Source: Ascaris suum
Taxonomy: Eukaryota > Nematoda > Chromadorea > Rhabditida > Ascarididae
Direction of reading: 5' to 3'
DNA length: 64,000 nucleotides
Assembly (NCBI GenBank): GCA_013433145.1
Contig: CM024175.1
Span: 3,022,516 to 3,086,515, forward strand
This document shows positions 2,648-40,100 of the stretch, one piece after another (position 1 is the first letter of the stretch; every line of letters starts with the position of its first letter). Both the position numbers and the translations under genes were made by a program. Under the pieces are notes generated by a model. The model saw nothing but the letters and a program-made list of their open reading frames with translations. It had not been told where the DNA came from and did not search any database.

Positions 2648-5235
2648 GATTGCAAAATTCGATTCCATCGTCGTGACTTGCTCTAGAGATTCCAGAAATT
2701 TGTGCATTTTATGTTGCCCAAAGGGAACTTCATATAGGAGCGGCATTAAACTTACCTTCGAAGGACAGAATAACACAGCGTAACACTGAAGCCGATTTAG
2801 CGCATCATCTACCTTCCATATCATGACTTCTTACTGCATTTATTTGTCGTCGATGAGTGTAATAAAGAAATATGTTATGTAGGATATCTGCGCAGTCACA
2901 TTTATACATTCTGACATATAGAACTATCAGTGGAAATGCTCAATGAATTGATATGAGGATATATGAGAGCAATCTCAACATTCTAACATATACAAATATA
3001 AAAACATAATGAGTTACATAGTAAAATGCGTAATTAATACACAACAAATCATCATATTTGCGAAAGAAGTAGCTAAAAAAATGATGCAAAAAGCTTTTCT
3101 AAATGTGGCACATTTCAATAGCAAGATTTTCCCGCTACAGAAATGTTAAACATCGAATCAAGAGCTGGATATTCAGTCAAAATGCCCGGCGATTGAAAAT
3201 TGAAAATCACTTTTATTAAAAAAAAGAACGCTCTCTATGAAGAAATTCGAGTGTATAATGTATGAGTTGAAAATTTGCCAATATTGTCTCATTCCTCTTT
3301 CTATTGCCCATTTAGTTTCTCCTTCTGTTAGCGCTTTTTATGTTTGTTTTCTCTGCGTGAAATTGTGCATTTTTTTTTCTCCAGCGTTAATGATGATTTT
3401 GACGTTGTTTATGGATTTCAGCAAATTGATGTTTGCTATGCAATATTTCTATCCGTGCAATTATTTCGTTTGCGTGATTGCTTTTGCACTCCCATTATAT
3501 AAATCATCAAAACCTGGCTGGGCAATTTCCTAAGTGCTATATGCAGCTTCAGTGGAAACAGTGGATTTGATCGAATATTATGAACATTACAACTTACAGA
3601 GAAATTTGTACGCATTTCGAACAGTTCGATTTCTTTTTCTGTGAAGGTTAATATCGCTGAAAATGGACGTTTTTTTTGATGAATTGTGTGAGTGGGGAGG
3701 TCAGCTAAGCCATGAAAGGATTGTCGCATAAGTGCATGTTATGCAACAGTTTCACTTGCTAAGCAGCAATAGCAGCAAATACGTATGAAGTGAATTCTTC
3801 CTGAAGGCTTTATTCGTCCGTTCTGAACAAAATATGGCGTGCGCATGATGCAGCGATCCAAAATGAGTTCTAATAATAGTGCTCTAGGAAGGAAATGCTT
3901 CGACATTTTCGTTATTGCCACAGACTTTGCAATGAATTATTGGAGGCCCTTCATGTTTTTCATTTCCATTTCAACAAATTCGATTCAAAGCGAAAATGAG
4001 TAATCACAACAAGTAGACCAACAAGCAATTCGTATGTTTATAGACATAGAGGAAGACATTGGAATGAAAAGTTGTCGAAAAGCAAATAGAATTTTACCGA
4101 TACGAGAATGCCTAAGATAACAGCAGTGATACTCAAAAAATTCCACAATATCGTTTGGTAAGCATGATATCGATTAGCTGCGTTTGCTATCATCTTGTGG
4201 TGATTCGGAATTTTCGATTTTGATATTTTGCACAGAACTTACTGCGGCCGCTGCTTCCTCTTCATCTGTTTGTCGAATGATCTGTAACTGAAGAAGAGAT
4301 CATTTGCACCATGATCGAAAGGCACTTGGCTGAAGCATCTCTCTCCATAATTTAATTCGATTGTGAGAAGATATGAATTTTATTAGTTATAATGGAACAT
4401 CGTCGGTTCAGAAGCATATGGAAATGCTGCATATTCTGTACGATCCTATGCAAAGTTTTTTTTTCCTTATGAATGAGAACACTTTAGGCGCCAGTTGCAT
4501 TTGTTCATAGAGAACTGGAAGGTGAAATCATTGGATCCGCGGGTGCAGAGTTTTTGTTTGCACAGAACGTTCGCACATTCCTATACATTGTAATGATCTA
4601 TGGAAGAATCAACGCTGAGATTCCTCATGCAACAAAAAACTTTCAACAGCTATATTTCTTCGACAACATCGCTGATAGGAGAGACGAAACAGTGCCGAGA
4701 GGATAAGAAATATAGTTTTTTTTTTCTTTCCGGATCTATTCTAATCGTTTGTTGTCGCCTCTCTGGAAAACAGTGATGGGGAATTTTCAACGCCTGTGTG
4801 CTGACTGCGAGCATATCTTTCTTAAGTTCGACACGTGCTTTCTTAATCATAGTTGGAATTTATTAGAGTTTACTGTTTTTGAGTATATCACTTAATTTTT
4901 ACTTTTACACGCAGATATGCCTTCAAGTGCGGGTCCACTTACCTGGCTTTACTGTCACCAAACTTGGGCCAGCTAAACTATGTTCCAATCACCAAATGTT
5001 CGCACCTTTCGTTTAACCGCATCTGACTGAAATGCTCATCACCTCGAGTAAAACCACACAGATTTCCAGCAACGCTTCAAGGTGTGAGCGGACTCTGTAC
5101 TTCACTGTGGCAATTGAAGCAGCGCATTGGAGGTGGCGACCTACAGAATCCCGCGAAACGTTGTCTAGCAACCGAACCTCGTCAGCTGCATATCGCCATA
5201 ATCGGCACATGTTGGCGGTAATTGCTAGTTTCACC

Positions 5236-5290
5236 GGCTCATGACATAGTTTGACTGGCTCATGATATAGTTTGATTTGCTCTTGATAGC
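5236..5290. repeat. 21-bp tandem repeat, about 2.5 copies
   Basis: Unit GGCTCATGACATAGTTTGACT at 5236-5256, a near copy at 5257-5277, and a partial third copy from 5278. Confidence 0.8.
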
Positions 5291-5827
5291 GATGAATATT
5301 AAACATACTTCTTTCACATTTATGCTTCACTATTTCTCAGTTGTTATAGTCGCAAAGAAACTTGACTTTTTATGTCGTCGCTGATGTTTGAAGGATGCAG
5401 CGCGAAGAGGTGCTCCTAACACATCGCTTAGTTCAGAAATTATTATGCGCTATCAAAGTCCCATCAAATGGAGGAAATATCGACGGCAAGAGTGAAGAAA
5501 TTGAGAAGAGTTTTCCTCACATAAAAACAATCTCATTTCCAAACATTCAAATAATCAAAAAATTCGCAAAAGTATGTCATATTGAAAAAAATAAAATTCA
5601 AAAAATGTGCGAATAATTTGGAGCAAAAACGGGTAATAACAAAAGCTTGTGAAATTCACTCATGACATTCACTCACCCATGCTAAACTGGCTAAACAAAA
5701 AGATAAGTCATTCAGCCAGTCTGGAAGATTGGTTGTCGAATATGACTTTAGTGTGCTGATTGGTCTGAAATGGTTGCTGACAGTGGCCAAATTTTTTACC
5801 AGCGATCAGCGATGTAAAGTAAAATGT

Positions 5828-5886
5828 TCATGTCATTGAATTGGGCACCTCCACATATTCGATAGCAATAGCACTGACCGTGAACA
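5828..5886 (-). CDS. possible terminal exon of elt-2
   Basis: A strong pyrimidine-rich acceptor (CCCCTATTCCGTCCAG) lies before 5886. Entered in phase 1, as the donor at 6605 requires, the frame reads FTVSAIAIEYVEVPNSMT and stops at TGA 5828-5830. This is the only phase-compatible terminal exon I noticed, but it has no homology support. Confidence 0.25.
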
Positions 5887-6604
5887 CTGGACGGAATAGG
5901 GGACAGTAAAAAACGAATGGTTCTTTGGCTTTTCGCGCTATTATTTAACTGTACTTTCACGGGATGAACGGATAGACAAATGTGAAAATAGACACTAACC
6001 TCGTTAACAATTCTGCTATTTAGAGAAGTGTCAACCTGCCGGTAGACATCCGTTGATGATTGCAATGATGTGCTTATCATGCGACTCGGATCTGCAAATT
6101 TTGAGTTCATTAAGTGTTTCCGGTTTCGCAAATTTCAGGTCAGCATTATTCCTATTTTTTGACTAAATCGTTCGAGAGTGAGGTTTATTGATTCTGGAGT
6201 AGTCGAGGCGAAGTGCGGTAGTGAAAGCTGCCTGATAGAAAGCATCGGAATGATTTGAGGTATAGACTTTTTCAAAAGTCTACATTAGAAACGTGGACTG
6301 TGCTGACAGCTGCGTTTTTTTTTTCATCCTCATCAGTGGATAATTCGTGATTGCAAGCATTTGCTTGAAGAAGGAGCAGGAGAGCTAGCTTCCTTAACAA
6401 CAGCCACTAAATCTCGCCGTTTTCACCAGCACTTGAACGTATTGTTATCGCTGTAATATAAGGCAGACCGAATTCGCTTTATCGCAAAGGATCAAGTCAC
6501 TGAGCCATTCAACATTATGGGATGTCAAACCAGTCATATGTAGTTACTCAAGTCACTTTCTGGAATGGATCATTTACGTTCACATGAATGGGAAGGGCAC
6601 ATAC

Positions 6605-6869
6605 CTGTTAGCACAAATCCACCGTTCATATGCGCCCATTGCGTTGGATCGGAAATGGCTGCATAATTGAGCGCAAGATCATGTGTTGCAGATTGCAGTG
6701 GGAGTGAAAGTTGATCTCTGTTTTCGATCGTAGATTGTAACGGTTGTGTTGCATATTCTAGAATCGCGGGCATTTTACTACTTGCTCCATCGAGAATTTT
6801 CTTTGCGAATGAAACAACATGAGTCTCTTCAGTTAATGCTCGCCATGTAAAAATATTGGCAGCCAGAAG
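6605..6869 (-). CDS. elt-2: probable elt-2 C-terminal exon
   Basis: The acceptor TTGTTGTTCAG lies before 6869 and the donor AACAG/GTATGT follows 6605. All 265 nt are open, phase 0 to phase 1, which matches both possible donors of the finger exon. A shorter version may start at 6800 after CGCAAAG. The segment [19 protein letters not shown] followed by GGFVLTG is loosely like the ELT-2 C-terminal region as I remember it, but the match is weak and the assignment rests mainly on position, strand and phase. Confidence 0.45.
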
Positions 6870-9800
6870 CTGAACAACAATTACCTTAAGAGAAGTTCAG
6901 TTCAGAGCTACTCGGCAGCCCACCTTAGAGCCATTTTTTGGAATTTGGTTTTTCACTGAATAGTCTCAGTGCAGAGTCCTTGTTGACAAGGATATTCGAA
7001 AATGCAGAACCATGAGTTCATCATTTCGTCAGAGGAGATAATTGAAGCGGTAGAAGACGACAAGTTGCACATGACGGCTTGTGAGCCCTATGTGCCTTAG
7101 ATTCGTAAAAGCTTATCAATATTGCGATAGTATGAGCATCAGGTGAGGAATTCATTTTGAATGAATTGTGAGCTCTGGAAGCAAGTGTTTCAGTGTCTTT
7201 ATGGAAATTAATCACTTCCAAAATGTCCCATAAACTTTTGCTTGAGCATGGGATATTTGGAAAATTACTCCTTCGGTCGTTTGCAAGGTTATTTTTCTTC
7301 CGTCATCCCCAGTTTCCTTCTAGTCTACCTAATAGTCTGTTAAAGAAACGTAACTTGCAAATGTTAGGACAAACGGAAGGGAAGGTGGGCATGAATCTCG
7401 CTTAGGCGCCGCAAGAGGTGGGCAGCTTAGGCCATGAGGTGTGGTGCTGAAGTATTGCTCACTGCTGTTAGGAAGATGAAGCAAAGGAAAAATGACTGTA
7501 GTGCTCTATAAGAGCGTATTGAGCTCGGGACCACATTTGTATAATTTTTGACGATATCAGTCTCAAGGCATAGTTACCTCATATACATCTCTAATTAAAA
7601 TTGCAAGATCTTAGCCCATATCATAGGCGAATAAAACTTGGTGCCAGCCGTAGAAAACGACTTCACTTGTTGAAATGTCACTGCAGCTGTTCGTGAAGTG
7701 TTACCGTTGAGGACAGTGGTCAACGTAGTGTTCCTTGCGAATGTTCGTGAATGCTTTTCGCCGTTCAATGTGTTTTTCTTGCTTGACACCTGGCGGCCGC
7801 TTCCGTCTGTCTTTTGCTTCCTCTTCCGCGTCTGCAGTGTTCCTTCCTTCTTCATTGATGCTGGCCGATGCACGTTGTGTAGCTTGAAATATAAGCCGCA
7901 AGCGCTAAACATCCACCTTTAGTGCTACAGAGCGGAATTGCAACAAACAGTGAGACGCTTTCCTGTTAACTTGCAGCATTGAAAGACACCCTATCAAAAC
8001 GAAGGGCACCTTTTATCATTAAGCTGCGGTGCTGGTGGGAGGTGGAACCGGATTGTAGTATTGTTGTGGAATTGCATTAAGCTTTGGCCGCAATTAGCTC
8101 AATTCACACCTCGTCATTAGACACTCATAGATGCTACCGGAAAAATGAAGTTCAGCTATAGAGGCGAAAGAACAGAAAACTTCCCGACTACCTTCAGTGG
8201 AACATTTCAAAACAAGCAGATGCTTCGATGTTTCGCAATGCCAGTTGAAAGCGGAAGCGAAAACTTTCTATGTGTATCTGTTTTCTTGCCTCTTATACCC
8301 CCCACCCCCCAATATCCTAGATATTATGAAGGAAAGGGGAAAAGATTTTCTCCTAAATGGCGAAAAGTCAGATTTCCTAAATGTGTTTAACAAGCGCAAA
8401 TCTTCAGCCAGGTAGAGGCTTCAAGGTTCAATACGAAGCGATACAAGTGAAGTCCGTCACAATCGAGCGCTGCAGCATTACGGTCGTAATTAATTAGCCA
8501 TGAATTAGCGCCTTTTGCGTTTTCATCGAAAACCTACTATACAATCATACGACTATACAGCATATATAATTAAGTTGAAATGGTAATATTCACATACTTG
8601 CAAACTGGTTCTCCTTCGGCGTTTCGCCTCCATAAGGTCGTATTTGTGCCATGACAGTTCGCACATACAAGACCTTGTCGCCTCTGTGAGCTCGACTGAA
8701 ACATCCGTTCACTGCTTATTTAGCCACCACAATAAGCAATATCCTTTCGTCGGAGGAAAAAAAAATGAATGCCTTATTATTCTTAGACACTCAAAGCTCT
8801 AGGCTAACATGCAAAAGAAGTAGATTCTCGTCTTGTTCTCGATGTTGTAAACGTGATACGAAACCATTGTCCGACATTAAGGTGAATGGCAATTTCTATT
8901 CCACCTTCAGTCAAAGAAAATATGTTTGTGACATTGAACGATACATACGCTCAAGTGGCTATTTGAAGGAGGTTTTATAACTGTGTGATGAAAGTCCGAT
9001 ACCTTTTACTCCTACTGTAATGTAAATACAAAACCCTAGTAATAAGGCAAACATTGAAGCCCATGCTACAATAGTACTTACAATAAAGCAAAGGCAGTGC
9101 ACCCAACCATTCCAAGTCGCTAATTCGGTTAATGAAAAGCCAAACAAACATTGTAGTCCCATAGGAATGTGTGATAAAAGTGGTTCACGGTCGCTTAGAG
9201 GCTATTGCCGCGGGGAAATTATCAATAGAGAATGAAACACTGATGCTGACGCCTTTGGTGTAGAATGAATGTCCTCTACATGCGCTCCAGTCCAAAAATC
9301 GCTGTTGAAGGAATAGAAATGTCGCATTCCTTGTGATTCTGAAACCTAGGTCACTAGCCAAGCGATAGAGTGATTGTTGGAATTCTTCTATCATCAAAGT
9401 GGATTTCCTCTGTGTAGTAGCTTCCATGTGCGGCTATCGAGGTAGGGTTAGTGGCGAAGAACCAACCACAAAGGGTCACGGGCTTGTTTCAATGAAAACA
9501 TGACCAAGCTGCTTCTGATTCACGCACCTGGTTTTTCTTCTGCGGTGGCCTCGACTTTCCGCCACTTGAAGAATGGGAGGCTTGTTGAGAAGTTTGCTGC
9601 GCCTGCACTGCTGGTGGGCTTCTCTCTGCAAGTATCCTTGGCGAGTAAACCATTCGAGCCTGAAAAATCCCTCAAAGGGTTTATAGTGTAAAAAGCTTGG
9701 CCTCCGAATAGTTAATCCCTTTTTCATCATCTCCTCCAATCGAAAAACAGATGAGTGCAGCTTTATATCACATAGTTCCTTCAAAATGACACGGAAGCAG

Positions 9801-12800
9801 ATGATGAAAGCACCGTCTTCTCGCATTTTAACGTGCTCCTGCCTTTCTCGCACTTTCACTTCGCATACGGGGAGGCTTGCAAGAAGCAAGAAGCAGGTAG
9901 CTGAATTTTATATTGCTCTATCCAACAAAACCAGTATCTTTCCCACTGACTGACGTCCTAAAAACCTCGAATTGCTCGTGTGCGAATGAATTTGCTGTGG
10001 ATTTGTTAGATAATTTCTTGCATGACGCAGTGGATCACGTACGAGAAACAATTCTTTCCTTGTCACTTCAATCGCTTTAAGGAGTATAGGAACGTCGATG
10101 TGAGTTCAGGCTTCTTGTGAATGTTGCGAATCATCTCCATGATCATAGGACTGCGAAGAGTGCATATGATATCACATGATATCACTGGCGCAGCGATGAG
10201 TTGCTATTGAAATTTAGCTGTGAATGGATCAAAGAACTCTTATCGCTAGATCAGTCAAGATATGGAAGAAATCGTCGAAAACGTATAATATTATTCAATA
10301 TTTCGTAGAGGCAACAAATTAGTAAAACAAACGCCTTTTAGAACAAATAACTGTGTGCGGCACGTTATGCTCGCATAATTCGAGTCAATCGCTACCTGTA
10401 CTTCCGGTATTTCCTGGATGTGCCTACTTCCGGCGGTCATCTGGGCAGCACAAGACTCGCAATAGAGTAATCCTCCATCCGGTGGTGTTGGCGCATCATA
10501 GACCAATGGTACATGACACGTTGTACATTCCTTCGAGGTTGAATATTGTGTTGATGTGCTTGTCGTGTTGAATACAGACGACATCTGAAGGCAAATTTTT
10601 AACGAAGAGAGCGGGAGCTTAACCAAGACGTTTCTTGGTTAAGCTCCCGCTTAACCTGAAGGCAAATTTCAGTGATGCCCCGCCTTCGTAATGAGGTAAA
10701 CCTCCTCAAAGTTCGAGTAAATTTGGATGCTGCGTTTTCGTCACCTTTAATCCCTACATATAATCACAACCATTTACAACCACGCCTGTGTAGATGACGG
10801 AAAAAACAACGAAGTATGCGAAAAGTCATCAGTGGATTATCAATTATTCAACTGTCATTGCTACATTCCTATATTAATTGGTACTGTTTAATATGTTCCA
10901 GTTTCCAAAAAGAGATAAACGAGGTCTGATTTACACTTCCCCACTTTCCAATGTTTTCAGCTCTAATGTTTCGAATTTACTGTTTGCAATGCTGAGACTA
11001 TGAATTTCGATGCGCACAAGCAAAATGAGCGGGTACAGAGAAGGTATAAAGCGAAATGAGGCATGAAGTCTCTCAGAAATTCCGCGATCACAGCAAATCA
11101 ACGATAATGATGATACTGCAGGGCATCAGATCGCAGATGAGCTAGAAAATGTCAGCGGTACTGTAGCATCGTATAGACTACTAGCGGAAATTGAAGATTT
11201 TGAGGTGGAAAAAAGGGTGTAGAGAGTGTGAAAATGTGGCTATTTGACGCCAACCTGATCACCTCTAATCTTACTCATTTGATTATTACATCCAATATAT
11301 TCAAATCAAAAATTTCTTGGTCCAAAGGAGTGCTAGGTGAAAATGATATTTCTTAAGCATATATCTTCAGCTCGTCCATATGATGAGTGAAAAACCAACA
11401 GATTCTTCACGAGAATCGTCCTATGCAGGTATCTGATAACCGGCATGTCTTACGAGCATCATTTATGGATTTGACAGCATTGAAATGCACCCTGATATCG
11501 GTACGTTTTCATGTCATACGGGATCACACGAAAATGCTTCCAGGACTTGTCGCTCGTCATGTCCTAACATTATCTTGCCACTTTGCAGTGGCCCTCATTA
11601 GCAGTCCCTTCGCCTGTGCCTCACTGTAGGCATTTTTAGATCTACTAGAATCACCTCTTCTTTAGAAGACTATCAAATTAAGAGAAGTTGCCTCCCCCCC
11701 CCCCCCCCGCCGTCTCCCTCAAATCTCCGCTTCCCCAACTAAAAGGCTGTCGGAACATGATGTGCGGGTCTTAAATTGCACTAGTCACGCTTGTTACACA
11801 ATTCCAGTGATGCTGCTTCAGAGTGTGGAATTTCCGTCTTGGTGGCTTCACTAGCATTTTGGGAATTTATTTGGAAGATGTATTTGTGTTTTCCATGCAA
11901 TAAACGTTTAACTCTGCAATAAATATCAATGCTGCTGACCGCATTTGCATAACAAACAGAAGCCTCCTTTGGGAAGGAGAGGAAAGATGGAGGGAGAGAG
12001 TCGATGAAGAGTTACCTGGGTTCAGCCGGATCTAGTAGCCCTTCAAAACCAGCTTCTAAATGATCTCAACACTTAGCAGCCTTTCTTCGCATTTTTCAAT
12101 TAACAAAAATTTCAAGCTAAAGGGCTGACGACACCTTTCAAATTCGAGTCGGGGAAGCTGATAGGAAGATTCATAAACTGCCACTAACAGCAATATTCTA
12201 TTGGTAGTGCAAGTGATCGCCGAACCTGCAAGTTTCCCATGTGCGATTACTGCTCACTTGCAGAACTCATAAAATCTTTTGTATGCGCAAGTTTCAATGC
12301 AATTTCGAGTCGGTAATTTTGCATCATGGCGCAAATTCACGTTTGGTGTGATTGCATTTTATGACAGAAGACTTTATCGGGAAGTTAAGCACGGTTGTAT
12401 CATGAAGCAGTGCGTGGCGTGAGTTCGACGTCGACGCTCAATGACGTTTCATCATTTTTTTTTCTACGATGCACACCGCGGTTATATCACGATCATCTCA
12501 ATAATCAGTGATGATGAATCAGAAATGCTTTAGCGTTTTCTAAGATATTCAGTACCATTCGGCACTGTGTTGAATTACCACTCGAAACAACGTGATAGGA
12601 ATGCTGCTGTCGCTAAACGTGTCAACTTGCGCTAAAGTGTAACCTCTCCGCTTTTCGATTTACGAAAAGTTTTCGCTTATGAGCCAACTTTTCTCTTATG
12701 AGACTGTTAGTTTCCCCGATTGATGGAAAACGAATGACCTGAGTGAAATTATCAAGAACCTTCATGAGCTCCTCTTAATATACTCGGATAAATGGACAGG

Positions 12801-15555
12801 CATTCTCACATGCTTCGAGGAAGAGCATTGGAACGGTCTGATTTTACTTTCCACTGGTGTCACTAGGAAGAAAAGTTGCCGAAAGTTTGCCAGCGTGTCA
12901 ACTGAATGTGCCTAAAATCACTCTCAACGACTGCTATCACCAATTGCTAATTCAATAACTCAAAGAAATTTCAACACATATTGGTTTCTTTTTCCATCTT
13001 TACATCGTGCTCCATGAGGGAAACGATTGAGGAAGAAATTTGAAACGCGCTGCTTTTCATTTCACAAGACACACTTTCTTCTGCAGCAAACTAAATCATT
13101 AAATGATGCAACACGAATAATCCTAAATCGTTTTATCAGATCCACGTCAGATCCACGCACATCTGACGTAAACGAAGAGCATCGATCGCTTACGATGTTG
13201 AAAGCAAAGAGAAAGGAAACCTCATTAGAAAATGTAATAGTCGAATTTTAGAAATTTTTGTTCAGAGCGAAATATGCGTCGATAGTTTTCTTACAACTGC
13301 ACTATAAATTACGCCCGCGATCATAAATCTCTTCTATCTGAATGTGAACACGCATTTTGCAAACGGAATGTTAGTCTTTCTTAGAGGAAACAAGGTAAGG
13401 ATTAAAAGAAGAACTCATCACATTAATGACACCGCTCTGAATAGTTCCCGAACACAAACATCATTTCCCAAAGAGTGCCTCTGACAAGAGCAGGTGAAAC
13501 TTAGAAGTAAGGGTAATTAGATTTTACAAAAATAAATGAACGTCTCAAAAAAACAAACGAAGAAATGATCTGCATTGATTTGAACTGATTTGTTTAATTC
13601 ATGGCTGAAACTAGCAACGCAGAAAGATAACAGTCGATGCTTTCAAATGATTTCGTGTTCCAAACTTACCTGCAGACTGATGAGCAGCTGACGAGAGAAG
13701 CGGGATGGCGGTGGGAGGGGGGAAGCGATGGGAGGGATAGATGGGATTATTAAGAAACAAATGCTGAAAATTATGACGCACATTTTGTTGTTGGCTAATG
13801 AAATGAACGCTCCCATCGTGTGTAAGTGTATCGGCGCTCGGCAACTGTGTTGTGCAATAGGGATTGCTCACATTAGGAGTGAATTGACTATATGCGTTAT
13901 CGTATGGTGCCAACTGTATTGTGTTTGGCCCTCGCATTGTCTCATATCTGAAATACAAATTAATCAGAAGCACTCCTTCAAAAGCAAAAAAAACAATTCA
14001 TGTATCTAACAGCAAACGCACTAGTTCAGCCTCACAAAATTGTACATGAAGAAATCATCATAAGAAGAAAATTTGTTGTGTTCAGCGAGTAGCGAACGAA
14101 GCTAGTACTAAAATTCCGGTAAAAGCAACTAATGTATGGAGAAAACGCGACAAACACCAAATAGTCTCATCAGTACAGCAGTAGTTTCAACGGTTTCTAA
14201 ATGCATTTTATCCACGCAGTCCACCTGAACTATTTGACCTGCTATTAGAAATTCGCAGTCCTCCTGATTCCATGCAAGGTGTCCGACTGAATTAATAGCT
14301 TACCTCTGATATAATGATGATGGAAGAGAGTTAGTACTAAGTAGGGTCGATGTGGAAGAACCAAGAGGAGAGCTGATCGGAGGTGACGGAAGATACGCAG
14401 TGGCTGGTCCCGGCTGAATATTGTAATAAGGGGTGGGATAACTTGAGTAAGCGTGAACACTCGAAGGGTTCACCAATGTTTCCGAGTTGTACTCGAGCAG
14501 GTTTATTGGAGTCGTTGGAAGAGCTGAAAACATATAATGCTTCAGTGAAGCTCTCAGAAGTCTTACTAGAGATTCTCACGAAACGCGAACTGTTGCTTAA
14601 AAAGAAAGTCATAATAACCAGTCCTCCTCGTTTATTTGCAGCTCAAGAGGTTCTTCTGAACGACAGCATTCAAACGGCCATCTTATATCTCACTTACCAC
14701 TAAAGTTCACATTCGCTTTTCGCCTCATCTTTAGCTTTCTGCATCCTATACTTAATAGAGTTATCATCGGTTCATGAGGCAATCAGCTGGAAACAACATT
14801 TATACGAATAAATCAATGGTTCTGCAGCGATCTGCAGCGCAATCTAAGCCACGGGAATTTCTCACTAGCACGACAAGGAGAAAGAACTCGACGAAGGATG
14901 TTAATGTTTTTTGATCGAATGTTCTGGAACACTACTGTAGACTCATCTCAGTTACAAATTCAGCAACATTTAAGCTTTTTGTAGCATAGGAACGAGGCTG
15001 GAGAAGGTTCAGTGAAAGCAGTTTGACCTAGGCAAAGATATTTGGCATTTTCTGGCTCTGGTGCAATTCGATTTGTTATGTACCAAGATCCATGACCGTC
15101 CACTCATTGTGGTGAATATCTCAGTAAATGATGCCTTGTTGCCATCAATGCCCAAATGGAGGATAGACTTTCAATCCCTTAATATTTTCCCTTGTTTTTG
15201 TTCATGCGCATCAACTTGTTGTAGCCCAATTGAGGTGATCGAGCATATGTACTATGGAACATTTCGCCGCAATATAATGTGTTGAGTTACAGGTGCGCAG
15301 TTTAAATGAAAATTCGGCAAAAAGAAGTATCTTCCTCCCTCTGCAACATAGCAACATTTGTAAGTATTCTTCATTTATTATTCAACAAACCTGGAATGGC
15401 GGCCTGAGTAAGGTTTGATAGCTGGTAAGAGAGGTCCGGTGAATCGAAAGGCGCCTTCATTTCGCTTGCTTGTGAATTGGAAGATGGTTCAACCAGCACT
15501 GATTGACGAGTCATTATCTTTTCAGGAGATTTCATCCTCTCTATGACACTGGAAT
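6605..15555 (-). CDS. elt-2: GATA zinc-finger transcription factor, ELT-2-like (multi-exon)
   Basis: This is a DNA-binding transcription factor of the GATA family; in nematodes ELT-2 binds TGATAA sites and drives intestinal genes. Seen: the join of exons 8598-8695 and 7904 downward gives a complete GATA finger, with CANC, the [12 protein letters not shown] core, [12 protein letters not shown], and a basic tail ending TRKRKQK. Spacing is CX2C-X17-CX2C. Exon 10396-10584 carries a second, degenerate finger (CTTC, 18 residues, CESC) without the LWRR core. Upstream exons 13670-13947, 14304-14523 and 15391-15555 are rich in P, S, T, Y and N, as expected of an activation region. One real finger plus a vestigial upstream one, with the [12 protein letters not shown] tail, fits my memory of ELT-2 better than two-fingered ELT-1. 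Open issues: the phase between exons 13670 and 10584 does not close, so one small exon is missing, or the downstream part is a separate trans-spliced isoform. The 5' end and the C-terminal exons are tentative. Confidence 0.8.
7790..7904 (-). CDS. elt-2: elt-2 exon, second half of the GATA finger and basic tail
   Basis: The acceptor GATGTTTAG lies before 7904. The exon begins [14 protein letters not shown] and runs through [16 protein letters not shown], the second cysteine pair and the basic arm that contacts the minor groove in GATA factors. Two donors keep phase 0: CGCCAG/GTGTCA after 7790 and CAACAA/GTGAAG after 7667. The longer form adds 41 Ser/Thr/Asn-rich residues. The open frame itself stops at 7595. 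Confidence 0.85.
8598..8695 (-). CDS. elt-2: elt-2 exon, first half of the canonical GATA finger
   Basis: The acceptor GATGTTTCAG lies before 8695 and the donor TGCAA/GTATGT follows 8598. The 98-nt exon starts in phase 0 and reads [16 protein letters not shown], then [12 protein letters not shown], ending in phase 2 so that AA+C makes the Asn of CNAC. It supplies the first zinc-binding cysteine pair and the DNA-contacting LWRR segment. Confidence 0.9.
10396..10584 (-). CDS. elt-2: elt-2 exon with degenerate N-terminal GATA finger
   Basis: The acceptor TTTGCCTTCAG is followed directly by ATGTCG at 10584, and the donor GTACAG/GTAGCG follows 10396. The 189-nt exon is phase 0 at both ends (63 codons). 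It contains ECTTC, then 18 residues, then CESC: four cysteines in zinc-finger spacing but without the LWRR recognition core, so it probably cannot bind DNA as a GATA finger. The ATG immediately after the acceptor would also suit a trans-spliced start for a shorter isoform; that is inference. Confidence 0.7.
10585..10669. repeat. 71-bp direct duplication of a splice acceptor with an internal hairpin
   Basis: CTGAAGGCAAATTT occurs at 10585-10598 and again at 10656-10669; on the minus strand each is AAATTTGCCTTCAG. Between them is a perfect inverted repeat with 18-bp arms, 10611-10628 (GCGGGAGCTTAACCAAGA) and 10633-10650, and a 4-nt loop. The first copy is the acceptor of the degenerate-finger exon. 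Confidence 0.85.
11694..11708 (+). repeat. C15 homopolymer
   Basis: Fifteen consecutive C in the 3.1-kb elt-2 intron; G-quadruplex potential on the minus strand and length likely to vary. Confidence 0.9.
12016..12055 (-). CDS. possible small exon in the elt-2 3.1-kb intron
   Basis: A 40-nt segment lies between an acceptor (GATCATTTAG) and a good donor (CCCAG/GTAACT). Entered in phase 1, as the upstream exon 13670 requires, it reads [13 protein letters not shown] without a stop. It leaves in phase 2, which still does not match exon 10584, so a further piece would be needed. It could be chance. Confidence 0.2.
13670..13947 (-). CDS. elt-2: elt-2 exon, Asn/Pro/Tyr-rich region
   Basis: The acceptor TTGTATTTCAG lies before 13947 and the donor GCAG/GTAAGT follows 13670. 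The 278-nt exon starts with [19 protein letters not shown], is rich in N, Q, P and H, and ends in phase 1. The next recognised exon, at 10584, starts in phase 0, so an exon of length 3n+2 is still missing in the 3.1-kb intron, or the isoforms are separate. Confidence 0.6.
14304..14523 (-). CDS. elt-2: elt-2 exon, Pro/Ser/Tyr-rich region
   Basis: The acceptor ATGTTTTCAG lies before 14523 and the donor CAGAG/GTAAGC follows 14304. The 220-nt exon is open in one frame and rich in P, S, T and Y (for example [15 protein letters not shown]). It ends in phase 2 and continues exactly into exon 13947 (AG+A = Arg). Low-complexity composition of this type is typical of activation domains; no folded domain is visible. 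Confidence 0.65.
15391..15555 (-). CDS. elt-2: elt-2 N-terminal exon
   Basis: The acceptor is TTTTCTTTCAG before 15555 and the donor CCAG/GTTTGT follows 15391. The exon starts in phase 1 and ends in phase 1, reading through [14 protein letters not shown] to [10 protein letters not shown], Ser- and Pro-rich. It joins exon 14523 in frame to give AAIPALPTTP. An alternative acceptor (TTTACCGTAG before 15574) would extend it in phase 0 and allow joining to the ATG-started candidate exon at 16133-16252. Confidence 0.6.
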
Positions 15556-18473: not shown

Positions 18474-18675
18474 CTGCACAGGATGTTGGCAGTTGAATAA
18501 ATGAGCCAGTGACCGATTGGTCCAGCGCTCCACTCATTCCGTTCCAAGGATAACTGTGAATTGTGGGACCTGCCTCCATATCGACTCCTTAATAATACCT
18601 CATACAAAGTGGGATCAACGTTGTCGGCTCTTGAGGTAACGAACAATACACCGGATGCAACTTCAACAATCAACA
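18474..18675 (-). CDS. unassigned exon-like segment
   Basis: A 202-nt segment bounded by acceptor TTTAGTCAG and donor TGTGCAG/GTTTGT is fully open from phase 1 to phase 2. The predicted peptide includes NVDPTLYEVLLRSRYGGR and ends in a Trp-containing hydrophobic stretch. Composition is protein-like, but I do not recognise a family and found no neighbouring exon that completes it. Confidence 0.3.
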
Positions 18676-20815
18676 CTGACTAAATTAGCCGAAGAAAGTT
18701 TAAAGCATGTAAGCTCAATTCCACCAATAAATCGACTTCAGCTGATATGCGATTATCTCGGCTAAGCGCTACCAAATGATAGAGGCAAGTCAGTCTTTGT
18801 ATCATATGTGGTTGCCACTGCATCATTTCTCTTCTGTTTTGAAAGAACCGTTATGACAACAGCTCTTTATTTTTAAACGCCAGTAAGTAACTCTTAGGAG
18901 TAGTCATTTTCTAAACACAGTGAACGACATCGAAAGCAATTAAGGAACGACTGGTCAAGAAGAGGTCAAGAGCTCTGAATCAATGTTTCGAAATGAATAT
19001 AATAAAAACTTCATCTAGTGCAGCATTAGTCAGCAAGGTACGCCAAACTATTATATAACACTGTTGCGATTGCGCTAAGAATAACAATAGTTATGCAAGG
19101 CGTTTAACGTACTAGCGAGATTGATACGGCACGACAATTTGCTGATTTGAAGTTCAGATTGCTGCCATCGTTATAATCGTAACAATGCTGTAATTTCTAA
19201 GTCGAGCCGATTTACCGTTGTCTATTCAATCCTAACCTAGCAAAAAGTCTTACAAAGAGCTGCATTCGAAATATACTCAGCTAAGAAGGAACGTCAGTTT
19301 AAACAGTAAGTGGAAAGCGCTCGCAATGAGATTGTATTGAGGAGGCATGCTCGTAAAATGAATGCACCCGAAGCATGCTTAAATGTCGCCATAACATGAG
19401 CCACCGAGCTGGCGTCGAATGAGAGAGAGCTGTCACTACCGTAACACTAGTACGCCCTCTTCGCCGAGGATCCATCAACGCATTAGCGCTCGCCAGACAT
19501 TTCTGCAGCATCATGTGTGATCTTCATCTATCTCATGCTACAGCTACATGAACTATTCTTAGTGCGACCACAGAAAAATGTATCGCAATCAATGAGGTGA
19601 GATAGGTTGTGAGCCAAGTAGGACCTTTTGTCAAGCTAAAATTGAAATTCAGTTGCCCAAATTCACAGATTAATCAGCCTCAAAAAACTTTTCCAACTCC
19701 TACAAACATATCACCTGGGGTGCACTGTTTTTCAAAACTGTCACTTGAAGATACGTATTATCTCAACCTAGACCGCCCGCCGTGTACAATGCTTTTCGGG
19801 CTAATCGACCGATTGAAGTGCAATAGGAATGATGCATTCTAGCATTAGTATATAGTTCATTCAACGATTTTGTGAGCTTTACATGTACCTCAGTTCGGGT
19901 AAGCATATCCATGAACAGGGGAAATGTGTTAGAAGGGGAGGGGAGGAATGGGAATCAAAAAATAGCGTCAACAGTACCCGTCATACCGGTCCTCTGTTTG
20001 TTCTTCTTTTGAATCCTCCACTGAAACGCTGCACAAGGCACGTATCGCGAAAAATTTATGCAGCCAACAAATATGAGTATCCCACTTCACCCGAAAAGTA
20101 AAAATTAAAATACATATCAAGCTGCAGAAGGCTTACAGAAGTGATTCGTAACGATTCAATTGTTCCAAAGTAAACCGTGGGGGATGGCATGTAGCTTCAC
20201 CAAGATTTCAATGAGAAGAAGGCTCGAAAACTATTATTCAGTTTCAACACAATGCTTCAGTAGCCAGATTGAAGGAAATTAATTTCAAGGCGCTTCTGAG
20301 ATTCCTCAATGTTGAACAATATCAACGCTCCGTTTTACTAAGTCAGCAGTTCGTTCAGACTCTCTTACGCTCTACTGTAGGATCCGTCGGATTCTGCTAA
20401 CGCAATATTTGTTGGAGGCGAACCCTTTTGCAATCAAGTCCTCATGAATCAGCGTTAGTTGCATTTCCCAAGGGTACAACGTTGATCTAAACTGTAATGC
20501 TATTAAACGAACTTCAAATATTTCAATAGCGAAACGATAACAAATAATCGATGCATAAACAATATCTTCAAACTTCTTCACGGTGAGAAAAAAAGAAATC
20601 ATAAAAGGTTGTTCCTTCATAATATTTAATGTTCGAAAGAATAAAGCGTACAATCATTCAGGCTGCTGATAATGTAAAAATTAATGGCCAATAAACGCGA
20701 GCTTATCCATCTACAAATCTTCTTTGGGAATTGAATATTGGAAATGCTTGGTACAACATCCTTGTTACGAAATCTTTCATCCTTCCCTCGCTAAACAAAA
20801 AAAAAAACATCTTAC

Positions 20816-20869
20816 CATGGTATCCGACGAGTGAAATTCATTGACTCGGCTGTTCTTGTGTGGTGACAT
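20816..20869 (-). CDS. short ATG-started exon candidate below the GATA cluster
   Basis: ATG at 20869 opens an 18-codon frame (MSPHKNSRVNEFHSSDTM) that ends exactly at a near-consensus donor, CCATG/GTAAGATG, in phase 0. It lies 65 bp on the elt-2 side of the TGATAA cluster and on the elt-2 strand. It could be a distal first exon of elt-2; no connecting exon was found. Confidence 0.25.
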
Positions 20870-20933
20870 TAAAGCGCTCATAATAAATGCACTGTCACGC
20901 GCACGACTAGGGCCCCCCGGGCTGGCCGGAAGA

Positions 20934-21103
20934 AGATAACACAGACAACACACATGAATAAATGTGATAACCGCTATCTAATCTTCAAACCAATTATTAT
21001 TCCATTTATCAGACAACTTTGTAACGCGATGCAATCGGCTGAGCAAAGAGGCCTGATAAACCTATCAGTGAGGTCTGATGAGACGGCAATGACGGCTTGA
21101 TAA
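20934..21103. promoter_or_regulatory. GATA-site cluster, candidate elt-2 enhancer
   Basis: Seven WGATAR-type sites lie in 170 bp: AGATAA 20934-20939, TGATAA 20965-20970, CTATCT 20974-20979, TTATCA 21006-21011, TGATAA 21054-21059, CTATCA 21062-21067 and TGATAA 21098-21103. Four are exact TGATAA, the core bound by nematode intestinal GATA factors. C. elegans ELT-2 is known to maintain its own expression through such sites, and this cluster lies upstream of the ELT-2-like gene, about 5.4 kb from its first firm exon. A plus-strand gene to the right could instead be the target, but I found none. Confidence 0.5.
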
Positions 21104-24100: not shown

Positions 24101-25202
24101 CTTTCGAGCAACACATATAAAAGCATCTTCCATGCCTGACGACCAAGGATTCCGAAGATGTTGCCAGTAAAACTTTTACCACTATGCATGCGAATAGATA
24201 CCCAAATACACACCATTTCCGGACTTACGTTTAAGATGCAGCGGTAGCGTACACGAATGAAGCTCTGAACAGAACGAATAGGAGGTTGCTGAAAAGTCTG
24301 CCTTCTTTCGACACGCTGCCAACAGTACATCACCTACTCAGTGGGCTCTATTTTCACATTTGGAGTTTTTCATCAGAATAAATGTGTGAGATTGCTCGCA
24401 CTGATTTTCATTATATCCTTAGATCGGCTCCGAAAGCGCAATATCGCAACTGGGAACTAGTCTCATGGTAAAATTGAACGATTATGGTGGAAATTATCGA
24501 TATTCGGCAGACGAGGATAATACAATGTCATCAGCGATAAACGGGAACAGAGTAGGGCGTTTCCGTTATCATGCTCCACAAGTTGTATTTCTCATATTCC
24601 ACTTGTGTGCGTCCATTATAATTACTACTAGTAGTTACGAATGGACTTGAATAGGCATTTCTAATATTCATGTTGCATCAGGTTGCTGGAACGTTAAGAA
24701 TTCTTGAGTGAATCGCGTAGTTTTACGCTGATCCAGTCCTTTCAGTCTTCTAAGCCCTTGGATCGGTAGATGAGAACGAAAACCAACGATTCTGCAACGC
24801 GACCAATTTTCGATTTTTTCTTCAGTAGAAAATGTTTCTGAAAACATCAAGTCATGTGCACTAACCATACAGCCATTGAAAGTTTTTCGCAGTGGCGCTG
24901 AGGTCCTTTATTTCTCGTGGTCCATAAAGTGCTCCATGGCTAAGAAAACCAAGGTTTCAAAATATGTGAGAAGAAATTAGAAGCCGTTCAGCGAAAAGAG
25001 TTTTATAAAATCAAGCCTTTTGTTGGTGTTTTTGCTTTTTTTTACGTTCAATGAAGTGCTCTACTGAACACTGTCGACTGCAATTATAAAGCTGCTAGTC
25101 TTCGCCTTTCAGAACCACATTCCAAGCATGCGCTAATGAAGACTCGACAGGACTCTGTCTCACGGTGTCAGTTTGTTACCTTTGCGCCCTCCTGATCGTT
25201 TT

Positions 25203-34100: not shown

Positions 34101-37100
34101 ACGGACTTCAGACTCTCTTTACAGCCGCTATCAGCAGTACAAAGTCAGAAACAACGCTGAGCAACAAAGCAGCGCAGCATTTGTCGTAGGGCGAGGTGCC
34201 TAAAGGCCTAACCGAAAACATCACTCAGAGACATTTTGGCCATTTCCATGAAATCGGTCGAAGGTAGAGATAACGGCAGCTAATTGTAAGCATTTTGCTC
34301 AGATTGGCATACTTGAGACTCCAAGCGCCGTTTCCTGGAATTGTTCAATGTAACCCAGTTACTTGCATTGTGAACGAGAACTTGTCGCTTTCATGCCATT
34401 TTGAACTGTGATATTATCAACTGTGGTAAAAATAACGGACAGGATGGAGGCGCAGAAGATATGAGACTTTGCCTCTTGCCAGATTTTTCGGACAACGAGT
34501 GAGGTCAGACTAGTGCTATTGGCGGCCACCAATGCGTGCGAAAGCAGGTGCAGAAACACGTTTATCATGCTTAATGGAAATATGAAGCGGAAGCATGATA
34601 TTTACGACAGCAATCTTCACAGCGCTATAGTTCACTTGTTACTTATGCAAAAGCGGTGATTTTTCGTCTTCTCAAAGGGAGATTTCGCAGGTTTAAAGCA
34701 AAGTAAGGTTGCGGAGATATATTGCAGGCGATCCATCCTAATACCAGAAAGCCCATCACTGATAACAAACTGCAGTTAATGGTCAACGATGGGGCAACAT
34801 CTCCTTCCCGTATATCTCCGCATAACAAAAATAACTGTTTGTTACAGTCTTTCCATGGTTTAGATTATTCTATTTTAATCTCTACGGCGTTTTAAATTCA
34901 ATAAAAAGTCGGACTTAATTGCGAAAGAAATGCCCCATAGGTTTGAGACTTTTATATTTTGTTTTTTTTTTTTTCAAAACGCAGGTATCAGTTCAAATGC
35001 TTCTCCACTCCGATGTCGCAAAACTATTCGAAAGGACCAATTTTCGGCTTAAATCATTCTTTCGGTTGATGCAGTTCCATTTTTCCCGCAATGCCCACAA
35101 ATATTACGAAAGCTCCAAATATTTATTCGAAGTTTTTCATCGGTTGCAGAACAGAGGGTTAGCCGCTTTTTTTTAATAGCCTATTAAAGAAAAAAGATCG
35201 CACGAATATGTCGAGTTTTAGTAGCAGTTTTGCGACGTACCTTGCCAGTTTGATATTTTCGCTGATTTGATATCGTTTACTTAAACTGTGAGTCCCAGCG
35301 ACGAAATTTAATTGGAACATTTGTTTATTACGATGCAATAAGTATAAGCTGGTAATAAAGCCACAGGCATCCACTGCCGTCAGAGCGCTAAGTACAATGT
35401 ACACATGAGTTTGACCATCACCTGAAAGCGCGATTCAACATCATATTTCCCGAATTAGTCTAGCAAGCACCCTCCATCGAGTGGTCCTGAATAGTCGCGA
35501 CGTCGAAGCTTTTGAAGACAAAGAGTTCTATGCTTGTGAGATTAGTCAGTAATCTTTCGATCGATTGGACTAACATTTCCTCCCTTGCCCACCTCGAGGA
35601 ACTTTCAGTGTGCTGGCGGAAAACGAAGGACACAAGCATAATTTCCTAATGCTGTTCTTCTCCTGTTCGAAATGGAAAGGGCTCTGCTGTCGATACAGCT
35701 ACGTTCACTGGCTATTAATCGTCCCTCTACATGTTTTCCTTCTCGTTTATGTCTATTTGCACTTTTTTATAAAAAGTTCTCGTTTATTACGTTTATTTGC
35801 ACTTTTTGCGCTTCTCGCATGCGTTGATAGGTATATTTTCCTTGCATGTTCTCGCTAGCAAACAAATTAATTGAGTTCTGTTGAACAATCTTGCTAACAT
35901 TGTGTATCCTTATATCATTCTTCTCATATATGCAATAATTGAATTATGGCATATGATATGCAAGAACAATTAGTTCAGGGACAAATGTGAGCATATCTGA
36001 TAAATAAAAGATAGCTCTGCAATAAATAATCGTCGTTTTCTCGATAAAGAAAGCGAAGCATATATTCGATCAAACAAATGTGATATAGATCAAGAACTGT
36101 TAAGATGGGCAGCTAACCTGAGAGGTGGAAATACAGAGACATCGAGATGCCAAACAGTACCTAAAAGAATAGCGGTCAGCACATCAAAATAGGAAAAGAC
36201 TATTAAATTTTACAGTTAAAGCAATTTATTGAGGGATATACGCAACAGTTGCTCCGTGAGGCGAGTTTCAGCTGAAACGTAAGAAGAGCAAAACAATGGC
36301 AAAGAGTAGAAAGGTTTCGTCATTGCACGGATACCGTTCCGTAGATTTTCAGAAAATAATGAAGAATGTCACATAGCAACGAAGGCTAGCATAAATCTTC
36401 TGCATCCCACCGTATTAGACAATAGAATTCTGTAGTTGTTGAAGAGAAACGTAACGCATTTTTTCGTCGATAACTAGGCGGTTGCAGGACTTGTCAAGCC
36501 AAAGGTTCATCGGAAGCAAGTTACGGCAGCAGCTTGCAGATCAAAATTCTGTGGTGCACTGAACTGATAAACGAACTAATTGTCCGGAGTGGAGGAAGAT
36601 TATGAACATTGCTGATGCGCGCTTTATAGGAGAGAAAGATATGCCCACTATTCAGAAAGCTCCAACGAAGCCATCACATCCCGAATGAACCCCATCAAAA
36701 TAACAGAAACGATATCGTTCACTGCGGTTGAGCTTATATGATGAAGGAAGGAGAAAAGTAAAGCTTTTACTGAATAATCCCTTCTTGTCTCTTATGTGGA
36801 TAAATCCCAAAAGAGTGGTTATTTTAATGCGTCAGAAATGTTATATATCACTGTTGATGATTTTGAAAGTAAACTCTGAAAGTAAACTCTCACCTCTTCT
36901 CTCCCTGGACGACCTGTTCCCTCTAAAAAGCAGGAACTCGATATTTCTTCAAAATTTTGTTCCAGAAGGACATGCCGTGGTTGAAACTCTCTTCGCTTCT
37001 GGCCGTCTTCACAATAATATCAGTGGTCATAAACCACACTGCATGCCATGAACTTCTGGAGACATTGAACGAACCACAGGGTGTTTTCAAACTCTTATTT

Positions 37101-40100
37101 GTCGCCATAATTCATTTTTTTTCTCAGTCGTGCATCATTCAAGCACATAAACGAAGAATGGATAGAAAGATGCGTGCATGGATCAGCATGAAAATGAATT
37201 TCATTTTCCTCGTATCCTCAAAGCAACAATGAACAAACGAAATTATGAATTGATCAATCATATAATCGTGATGTTATATGGTCGGTATAATCAGCGAGCC
37301 GAAGTTATATTTTTACGCGCTTATGGGAATGCGAAACTCATAGGGAAAGCCTGCTAGTTATGTGCCACATCGATGAAAATTTGATGGTTATTGGACAATT
37401 AAAAAATGGTTGGTCAAGGCACTAATGCAATTTAATAAAGTTGAAGAAGAACTTGCCGATGCGATGCATGCAAGCGTTAGAGTGATTGGTTGATGATTGC
37501 CGTGCTTCTCATAAACACTGGCCCATCGTGTCGCAACAAACCTCTCGGCTACTGCAAACAATACAAGCGGATACTTTTAAGACAAAACTCTATGAGGTTA
37601 CTTTTTCGGAAATCATCAACATATGTCATGCCCGTGTGATAGTTGGGAAATGATGAAGGGCACAGTGAAGTAGGCAAACTTTACAACGGCTACGCTTGAT
37701 GGGAGCCATCGCAGACATGAAGATCTTTTGCCGCAGTTGAGAACAGCATGCAGCCGGACGCACATACGCACAGGGCAATTCAATTATTCGCCATTCGAAA
37801 ACTTCCACAAGCGAATCTAAAATCTGCTGCAGAAGTATAATGCTGCTTTCAGCATTAATCCAAATGTCACAAATACTTATAGCCGGAGTAGAGACGAAGA
37901 AGTGCTCAGATTATTTTACAAGTTCTTGAGCGCCATGGAATGCTCAAAAAATTTCTTAAGAAACAAAGCAGTTGTCCACATATCAAGGTGAACCGCTCAA
38001 AAACGTCACGTTTTTCATTAATGCATGAGTGCGTATTTCGCAAAAGAAAAAAATCTGTACAAATTTATTATTCTATCGTTATGTTTGATGGATATAGTTC
38101 AACGACTTCGTTGTTTTCGGTGATGCATACCCTTTCCAAAAGCGTTCGCACAAAAATTCATTCTGTATTTACAAGTATCGCTGTCGCAAACCCTTATATA
38201 GTAGACCTATTTGAGTATTAAATAAAAGCAAATCGAAGCTGAGATTGATTGCCACATGCTTCGAATTGAAGCTGAAATCAACTGAACTTATGGGTTGAGA
38301 GAGATATCGACGCAAATGCTTCCCTCAATTTCGAGGCATATTTTTATTCATTTATTGTTCGTATGCATCAAGCGAAAATTTTATTTAACTTAAATTTAAA
38401 CTTCCGACATTGTTGTCATTACTATATACAACTTTCAATGGTAACAATACTCTTATCGTTTTCTCAACATCATATTTTTGTATTGGTTTGTTATCTAATA
38501 TTTGTATAATTTCGTTATCGCGGAAAATTTAAACGGTTATATGAAGTTGCAATAAGTAAATACCCGCCGACTGCATACTTCATGAGGCGGACTGTGCTAT
38601 CTACCGAAATTGAGTTGATGTTGATGAACGAACAACAGCAGAACAGTTCGGAAAGTGATGAAAAAAAGATCAATATTCAACGATCGAAAGACGCTTTCCA
38701 TGCGCAAACCTCTTGTGTTTAATAAGTGTGAGAAGACGCAAAACACAACGATTTATTTTGTTTTTTGTTTTTTTTTTTTTTGCACATATTCGGTTGTCGT
38801 TATCTTTTGGACAACGCTACTTCCGTGGCGATTTAACCTTTTTAAGTTATTTCTTCTACTGTGTAGCTATTTTTGCCACTTAAGTATCCAAATTTTAAAT
38901 TTCGATTTTATTTGCAATTTATCCGTTCATTGGACAGCCGTTACACTTGGCTTCGATAGGCTAACGTCAAATAGCTTTGTTTCGATGCTAATTGTAAAAG
39001 AGACGGAGTGTTATTTAGGACATCATCAAAGGGGATAGAAATCTTTCCTCTCATTATGACTGAACTTGCATTCACGACTTCCGAGCTTTAGCGCTAACGG
39101 TTACGTCAAATCATTGCTGCAGTTTCACGGCCTGAATCGTCTCGCACACCTATTCACAACTGCAAGAAGACTCAGCCTAAGTCTAGACGCTGTAGCAAGT
39201 TTATGAATTTTTTCTTTCTAAGTAAACAGATTGTGGGATTTATCGATGCACTGGCACTCGCTTGGTTATCAATGAAGGGAGTGCATGCTAAGATTTGCAT
39301 ACGTATGCACACTGCCTGGAAGATCAAGATTTGATTGGGAAGAACGAAGGAGATTTTGGCAAGCGATGAACTTTTCGCATGGCAACTTTTCGCAATCGAC
39401 TACGCCTTCATCTCAGCCTGCGTTATAGAAACGTCAAATGTTGACTCATGATAATGGAGCGAATTTTTAAGCTGTGGTGTGTTACGCCATCGGAGATGGA
39501 GTGGAAATTCGCCGAGATTAAGATGCGTACCTTCACTTTTCCATTCGTGTTCATCACTTGAACCGAACGCATCGCTCAGTTAACCTCCTTCTTGCAGATT
39601 GCGACGATTCTATTATATGTTTACTGGTAAAATTTGGGGCTGTCTGAAATATCCCTGCATGCGCATCAAGTATATGGTGGAATTTGACGTTCAATAATGA
39701 GGACTGATCTTTGGTAACGGCTATCGCTTTCGTCCACATTAGGAAATTCGTGCATTCGATGCAGCCCTAACTTCCAGCACTTTCGTCAATCACTTACCGA
39801 GAAGCATGAATGCGAATGTGTAAGATGGAGTAACAATATCGTGAATGACATAAAGAATCGACCATAACACCCTTGCCAGCTTTCCTTGAGGTGCAAATAT
39901 TTTCATAGTGGCCAGTGAAAAGAAGTCCACAACGCACACCAAAAATATACCAACCAACAAGACCAAAAGAACCCTGAAAGAGCATTCAAGTCCTCTTGCA
40001 CAATGCAAATTGAACATTGAAGACAGCAGTATTTATGTTTATGTAATAAATAATTGATGGGTTGTTACCTTAACGATCGAATCGTTGCTTCTATCAGCCG

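Follow-up and report, generated by a model that had tools for sequence, protein, structure and literature searches.

We identified a cluster of seven GATA sites upstream of an elt-2 gene in Ascaris suum, and we give about even chances to its being a GATA-factor-responsive control element of ascarid elt-2. This putative element, which would either be autoregulatory or receive its input from a different GATA factor, occupies positions 20934-21103 of the 64,000-nucleotide stretch of DNA analysed here (hereafter, the window). The original prediction had counted seven GATA sites in this interval, four of them TGATAA, and our recount by motif scan agrees, with all seven also conforming to HGATAR. 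From low to high coordinates they are a single AGATAA site on the plus strand (20934-20939), a convergent double-GATA pair (20965-20979; TGATAA, 3 bp, CTATCT, with the minus-strand HGATAR half at 20974), a single TGATAA on the minus strand (21006-21011), a second convergent pair (21054-21067; TGATAA, 2 bp, CTATCA, with the minus-strand half at 21062), and a single TGATAA on the plus strand (21098-21103), so that the cluster as a whole is assigned to neither strand. About 0.2 TGATAA sites had been expected in an interval of this length, which is close to the value of about 0.16 given by the window rate of 0.94 per kb. Since the G+C content of the interval is 39% and that of the window 40%, a high A+T content does not account for the cluster. 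A short G+C-rich block, GGGCCCCCCGGGCTGGCCGG, adjoins the cluster on the elt-2 side at 20910-20929 and could be a promoter-proximal element.

The window contains a single GATA finger match, at 8597-8665 on the minus strand, out of eight matches with an E-value up to 0.01 in the whole genome (277.8 Mb in 97 contigs). By comparing a Parascaris univalens protein (P0001) with the window, we delineated 11 coding exons of the gene on the minus strand, running from the start codon at 18579 down to 4177, with some ends approximate. The exon that carries the start codon (MEAGPTI...; 18475-18579, compared with P0001 and with a second protein, P0002) is followed by exons at 15391-15555, 14304-14523, 13782-13947, 10396-10584 (containing a degenerate N-terminal C4 finger), 9528-9662, 8598-8695 (the first part of the GATA zinc finger, placed by both the GATA match and the homologue comparison), 7706-7904 (the rest of the finger and the basic region; low end approximate), 6606-6800 (high end approximate), 5996-6108 (both ends approximate) and 4177-4290 (the last coding exon; high end approximate). 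The last intron harbors three copies of a 21-bp tandem unit at 5226-5288. The predicted product has one canonical GATA C4 zinc finger (one Pfam GATA stretch, 55.9 bits versus a cut-off of 26.8, in a partial 375-residue join), and upstream of it a degenerate finger, C-X2-C-X18-C-X2-C, that has no Pfam match. This build of a canonical finger and a degenerate upstream one is shared with ELT-2 orthologues, a degenerate upstream C4 finger being reported in 28 of 30 of them (PMC7712238). The best database matches of the gene are to Parascaris (86% over 90% of the query) and to the Toxocara canis 'Transcription factor elt-2' (68% over 89%), the 375-residue query being a partial one that lacks several elt-2 exons and includes a tail derived from an intron. 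Of the eight GATA finger exons in the genome, five are readable, and among these, as judged by eye rather than from a tree, that of the window alone resembles ELT-2. The finger build and the Parascaris and Toxocara elt-2 counterparts thus agree with the nearby ELT-2-class GATA gene that had been predicted, and on its sequence we classify the gene as ELT-2-class; the strongylid framing of the original prediction finds no support, the closest gene matches being ascarids. An A. suum ELT-2-like gene, GS_05212, which may differ from the one in the window, is reported by Rosa et al. (PMC3916258) to be highly expressed in the intestine (and pharynx).

The gene being on the minus strand, the elt-2 start codon at 18579 and the cluster are separated by 2355-2524 bp (2.36-2.52 kb), the cluster being upstream, on the side that had been claimed for it. 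A stretch at 20021-19977 on the minus strand, lying at a TTTCAG, aligns with the 15 N-terminal residues predicted for the Parascaris gene, 8 of the 15 being identical. The score of this match is 44, while the runner-up position reaches 22 and none of 60 shuffled queries exceeds 35, so the stretch is probably an upstream exon of elt-2. In Ascaris, no in-frame ATG occurs after the preceding stop codon and before the match, and the stretch is perhaps 5' UTR or a start that is annotated differently. From this most distal homologue-supported stretch the cluster is about 0.9-1.1 kb away. A weak candidate first exon, consisting of 22 codons from an ATG followed by a GTAAGA donor, lies at 20816-20881 on the minus strand, only 53 bp from the cluster, and its ATG would be 53-222 bp from the cluster. 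A homologue search with this candidate exon returned one match, in Parascaris, whose protein has no counterpart of the exon.

We then have to consider that the cluster serves a different gene, and we regard this as very improbable. What speaks for it is that no transcript ties either the candidate exon 20816-20881 or a 93-aa ORF at 20375-20653, both on the minus strand, to elt-2. This ORF, which lies between the cluster and elt-2, is single copy, and it has no Pfam or PDB match at E-values up to 10, which argues against a recognisable gene of its own. A likeness to a Pax domain noticed in it by eye was not borne out by the same Pfam search, and none of the 22 PAX matches in the genome falls there. 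Beyond 18.6 kb there are 205 ORFs that are 60 aa or longer, of which we scanned against Pfam the 99 that begin below 41 kb (19.3-40.7 kb). Five families matched at E-values up to 0.01, and the cut-off was passed only by a pair of chemoreceptor families in one ORF, 35162-35434 on the minus strand, which is a Srab/Sre-type 7TM chemoreceptor exon (E = 1.5e-5 and 2.2e-5, above both cut-offs). As this is the only ORF with an above-cut-off match, the upstream neighbour seems to be a same-strand chemoreceptor gene, its exon lying 14 kb upstream of the cluster. Another ORF, 37391-37576 on the minus strand, looks by eye like an earlier exon of such a chemoreceptor and has no Pfam match. The matches to beta-TrCP_D, Orthopox_A5L and mono-CXXC fell under their cut-offs and were dismissed as neighbour genes; real beta-TrCP_D domains sit elsewhere, on contig C3. 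A search with 20 of the 42 ORFs that are 95 aa or longer, which reached as far as 62 kb, likewise gave no Pfam match above the cut-off. The cluster is therefore beside no other recognised gene whose promoter it might occupy, as far as the Pfam scan of 99 ORFs goes, from which short or unfamiliar exons could escape. The interval is not a repeat or a transposable element either: a query of positions 20800-21200 matches only itself in the genome, so that these 401 bp are single copy, and the interval has no tandem or inverted repeat. An RNA gene was also rejected, the window having no tRNA and no Rfam match at the gathering score.

GATA sites are frequent, and a striking group of them picked post hoc from 64 kb could be a chance cluster that has no function, a reading which we consider unlikely though by no means negligible. 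Counting TGATAA along the whole window, a check that had been proposed, gives 60 sites versus a mean of 59.4 in 100 shuffles, so the total is at chance level, as this reading would have it; nevertheless, the cluster interval is the only 170 bp in the 64-kb window that holds at least three. The plain GATA core also favours chance: one other place in the window has eight cores per 170 bp and two more have seven, equalling the cluster, and at least eight were reached in 39 of 300 window shuffles. These core-dense stretches are at 4099-4265, which overlaps the last coding exon of elt-2 and runs past it, 24414-24580 and 35905-36071. By plain GATA cores the cluster interval is ordinary, but by HGATAR and TGATAA it stands out. 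We quantified this by dinucleotide shuffling of the whole window (n = 2000) and of the 3-kb region preceding the elt-2 start codon (n = 5000). At least four TGATAA within some 170 bp arose in 47/2000 window shuffles, a figure that speaks for chance, and in 11/5000 upstream shuffles. At least seven HGATAR, on the other hand, arose in only 4/2000 and 1/5000 shuffles, respectively, and two convergent HGATAR pairs no more than 150 bp apart in 34/2000 and 3/5000, while the two features jointly were found in 1/2000 and 0/5000. The figures for the pairs are partly post hoc, because the spacing limit of 0-8 bp was set after the sequence had been seen. A separate run of 300 window shuffles yielded at least four TGATAA in five cases and at least seven HGATAR in none. 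In 20 other 10-kb stretches of the genome (200 kb, all from one contig, C2), the maxima per 170 bp were three TGATAA and five HGATAR, and a Poisson estimate from this sample puts the number expected in 278 Mb at about 100 for four-TGATAA clusters and about 31 for those of seven HGATAR. The former number again lends weight to chance, against which it must be set that the cluster lies upstream of the only gene in this region that we read as ELT-2-class. In short, the cluster is unusual but not unique.

The convergent pairing of the sites is a better clue than their density. With a spacing of 0-8 bp there are exactly two convergent HGATAR pairs in the window, both of them in the cluster and 89 bp apart, and the other pairs at this spacing, one divergent and three tandem, all lie outside it; the C2 sample has five convergent pairs per 200 kb. 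Using MEME on the 1-kb regions upstream of elt-2, Eurmsirilerd and Maduro (2020; PMC7712238) described in 10 species a 'double-GATA' motif made of inverted convergent HGATAR sites, and proposed that it is possibly autoregulatory. The convergent motif, like the autoregulation of elt-2 through GATA sites, has already been put forward in the literature. The Ascaris gene is similar in being an elt-2 orthologue with inverted convergent HGATAR sites upstream, here as two pairs in one cluster, but its pairs are 2.4 kb from the start codon and embedded in a wider cluster, whereas the published search was confined to a 1-kb flank. Measured against that flank, the cluster is 2.36 kb away from the start codon, with 0.91 kb between it and the homologue-supported stretch and 53 bp between it and the candidate exon that homologues do not support. 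The spacings of the pairs are 3 and 2 bp, and the likeness to the published motif rests on its description in words, not on its logo or spacing. Moreover, since we met this publication and picked the spacing limit only after the sequence had been seen, the double-GATA test is only partly independent. The autoregulatory GATA sites of C. elegans elt-2 (Wiesenfahrt et al. 2016) are likewise upstream of the gene, and there ELT-2 binds the promoter; however, they are described as a tandem (direct) pair, whereas the close pairs in Ascaris are convergent, none of the three tandem pairs of the window being inside the cluster interval.

We also searched the genome for the arrangement. A convergent pair with a third TGATAA at 60-90 bp occurs at 121 places (66 + 55) versus 47 (23 + 24) in the reversed control, which makes the pattern 2.6 times commoner than in the control, and some of these places, such as four on contig C13 near 8.00 Mb, resemble copies of one repeat. 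When two pairs were sought with the first spacing fixed at 3, the cluster's own value, which favours the cluster, the pattern was found at two places, one of them in this window, versus none in the reversed control.

Two further comparisons are less favourable to the cluster. The longer gut consensus in C. elegans is AHTGATAARR; it has three occurrences in the window and none in the cluster interval, and a G follows TGATAA at none of the four TGATAA sites of the cluster. According to Rosa et al. (PMC3916258), the highest-ranking motif among the intestine genes of A. suum is an ELT-2-type site, CTTATCAR. This motif (TGATAA followed by G and preceded by C or T) is present seven times in the window, but is absent from both the interval and the 3 kb upstream of the gene, and a cluster that lacks the extended intestine motif is what chance could produce. 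The second comparison involves three further GATA-type finger exons, for each of which we took 10 kb of 5' flank (regions L030, L031 and L032); in these regions the maxima per 170 bp are, respectively, two, three and five TGATAA and five, four and six HGATAR. Because L032 (contig C24, 4632184-4642183) has more TGATAA per 170 bp than our cluster, dense TGATAA is not peculiar to elt-2. The five sites in L032 fall within about 80 bp around its positions 5819-5890, beside the GATA-type finger exon. The region is 31% G+C, it has 28 TGATAA in 10 kb versus a shuffle mean of 17.6, its cluster arises in 2/2000 shuffles, and it contains no convergent HGATAR pair at a spacing of 0-8 bp. The L032 cluster may be a sign that a second GATA gene is controlled by GATA factors, or it may reflect just an A+T-rich stretch; it either weakens the claim for elt-2 or hints at such control of a second gene. 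That similar clusters might be common genome-wide had been named as a point against the original prediction, and this comparable cluster beside another GATA-type exon partly bears it out, although within the window the elt-2 cluster has no equal in TGATAA.

If the cluster is indeed a GATA-responsive element of elt-2, two GATA proteins would sit opposite each other on each convergent pair, with the three single sites adding local density. Pairs and density together could make occupancy climb steeply with the level of ELT-2, and in this way the element might set or maintain the output of elt-2. In the gut the likeliest ligand would be ELT-2, with its single GATA finger and a degenerate one, while in the embryo another GATA factor may act, for example an ELT-3 orthologue, as in C. 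angaria (PMC9720673). Upstream regions of elt-2 from other nematodes can be active in C. elegans, as shown by Gordon et al. (2015; PMC4447282), in whose work C. elegans embryos gave endodermal expression with the regions from Brugia malayi, Meloidogyne hapla and C. briggsae and none with that from Trichinella spiralis. The same authors caution that known motifs are no commoner in these regions than in shuffled sequence and do not amount to conservation in the strict sense. The Ascaris interval is comparable to them as candidate regulatory DNA with GATA motifs upstream of a nematode elt-2, but they were tested with reporters, whereas the interval is a candidate read from sequence, and their set as described includes no ascarid. 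No ascarid elt-2 element is named in the titles and abstract openings of the papers found on Ascaris, elt-2 and enhancers.

Which GATA factor would be the main input is a separate matter. The element could be real and yet respond chiefly to another GATA factor, ELT-3-like or other, that starts elt-2 in the embryo, making it a feed-forward rather than a feedback element. We judge this to be improbable, but it is consistent with several observations: ELT-3 activates elt-2 in C. angaria as part of what the authors call an 'ancestral network', MED, END and ELT-7 are reported absent outside the Elegans supergroup (PMC9720673), other GATA-type finger exons are present in the Ascaris genome, and the HGATAR core is common to GATA factors. 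However, the same study reports signs of elt-2 autoregulation in C. angaria, and both inputs can use the same sites. As for the sign of any feedback, the statement in the original prediction that C. elegans ELT-2 sustains its own expression is put in dispute by the reported experiments (PMC10411582): ectopic ELT-2 activates the elt-2 promoter, but depletion of ELT-2 raises the activity of an elt-2 promoter reporter about 5-fold, in an ELT-7-dependent manner. The latter result would fit negative autoregulation, in which the element lets ELT-2 damp its own promoter. We think this quite improbable in Ascaris, since the effect requires ELT-7, a factor that species outside the Elegans supergroup are reported to lack (PMC9720673), and since ectopic ELT-2 has the opposite, activating effect. 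Carrying the preferred reading of a GATA-responsive elt-2 element further, one may speculate about a phylum-wide cooperative switch, in which ELT-2 bound face to face on convergent pairs responds steeply to its own level, and which in ascarids would sit in the proximal promoter of an unannotated first exon at 20816-20881; this extension has, in our estimate, little probability.

Parasitic nematodes are reported to lack the MED/END/ELT-7 component that operates in the C. elegans cascade (PMC9720673), and how their gut identity starts and persists is the question that the putative element addresses. A 170-bp element with two paired sites would be a small, testable object for this question, and the cluster lets the convergent double-GATA motif be examined more closely in an ascarid.
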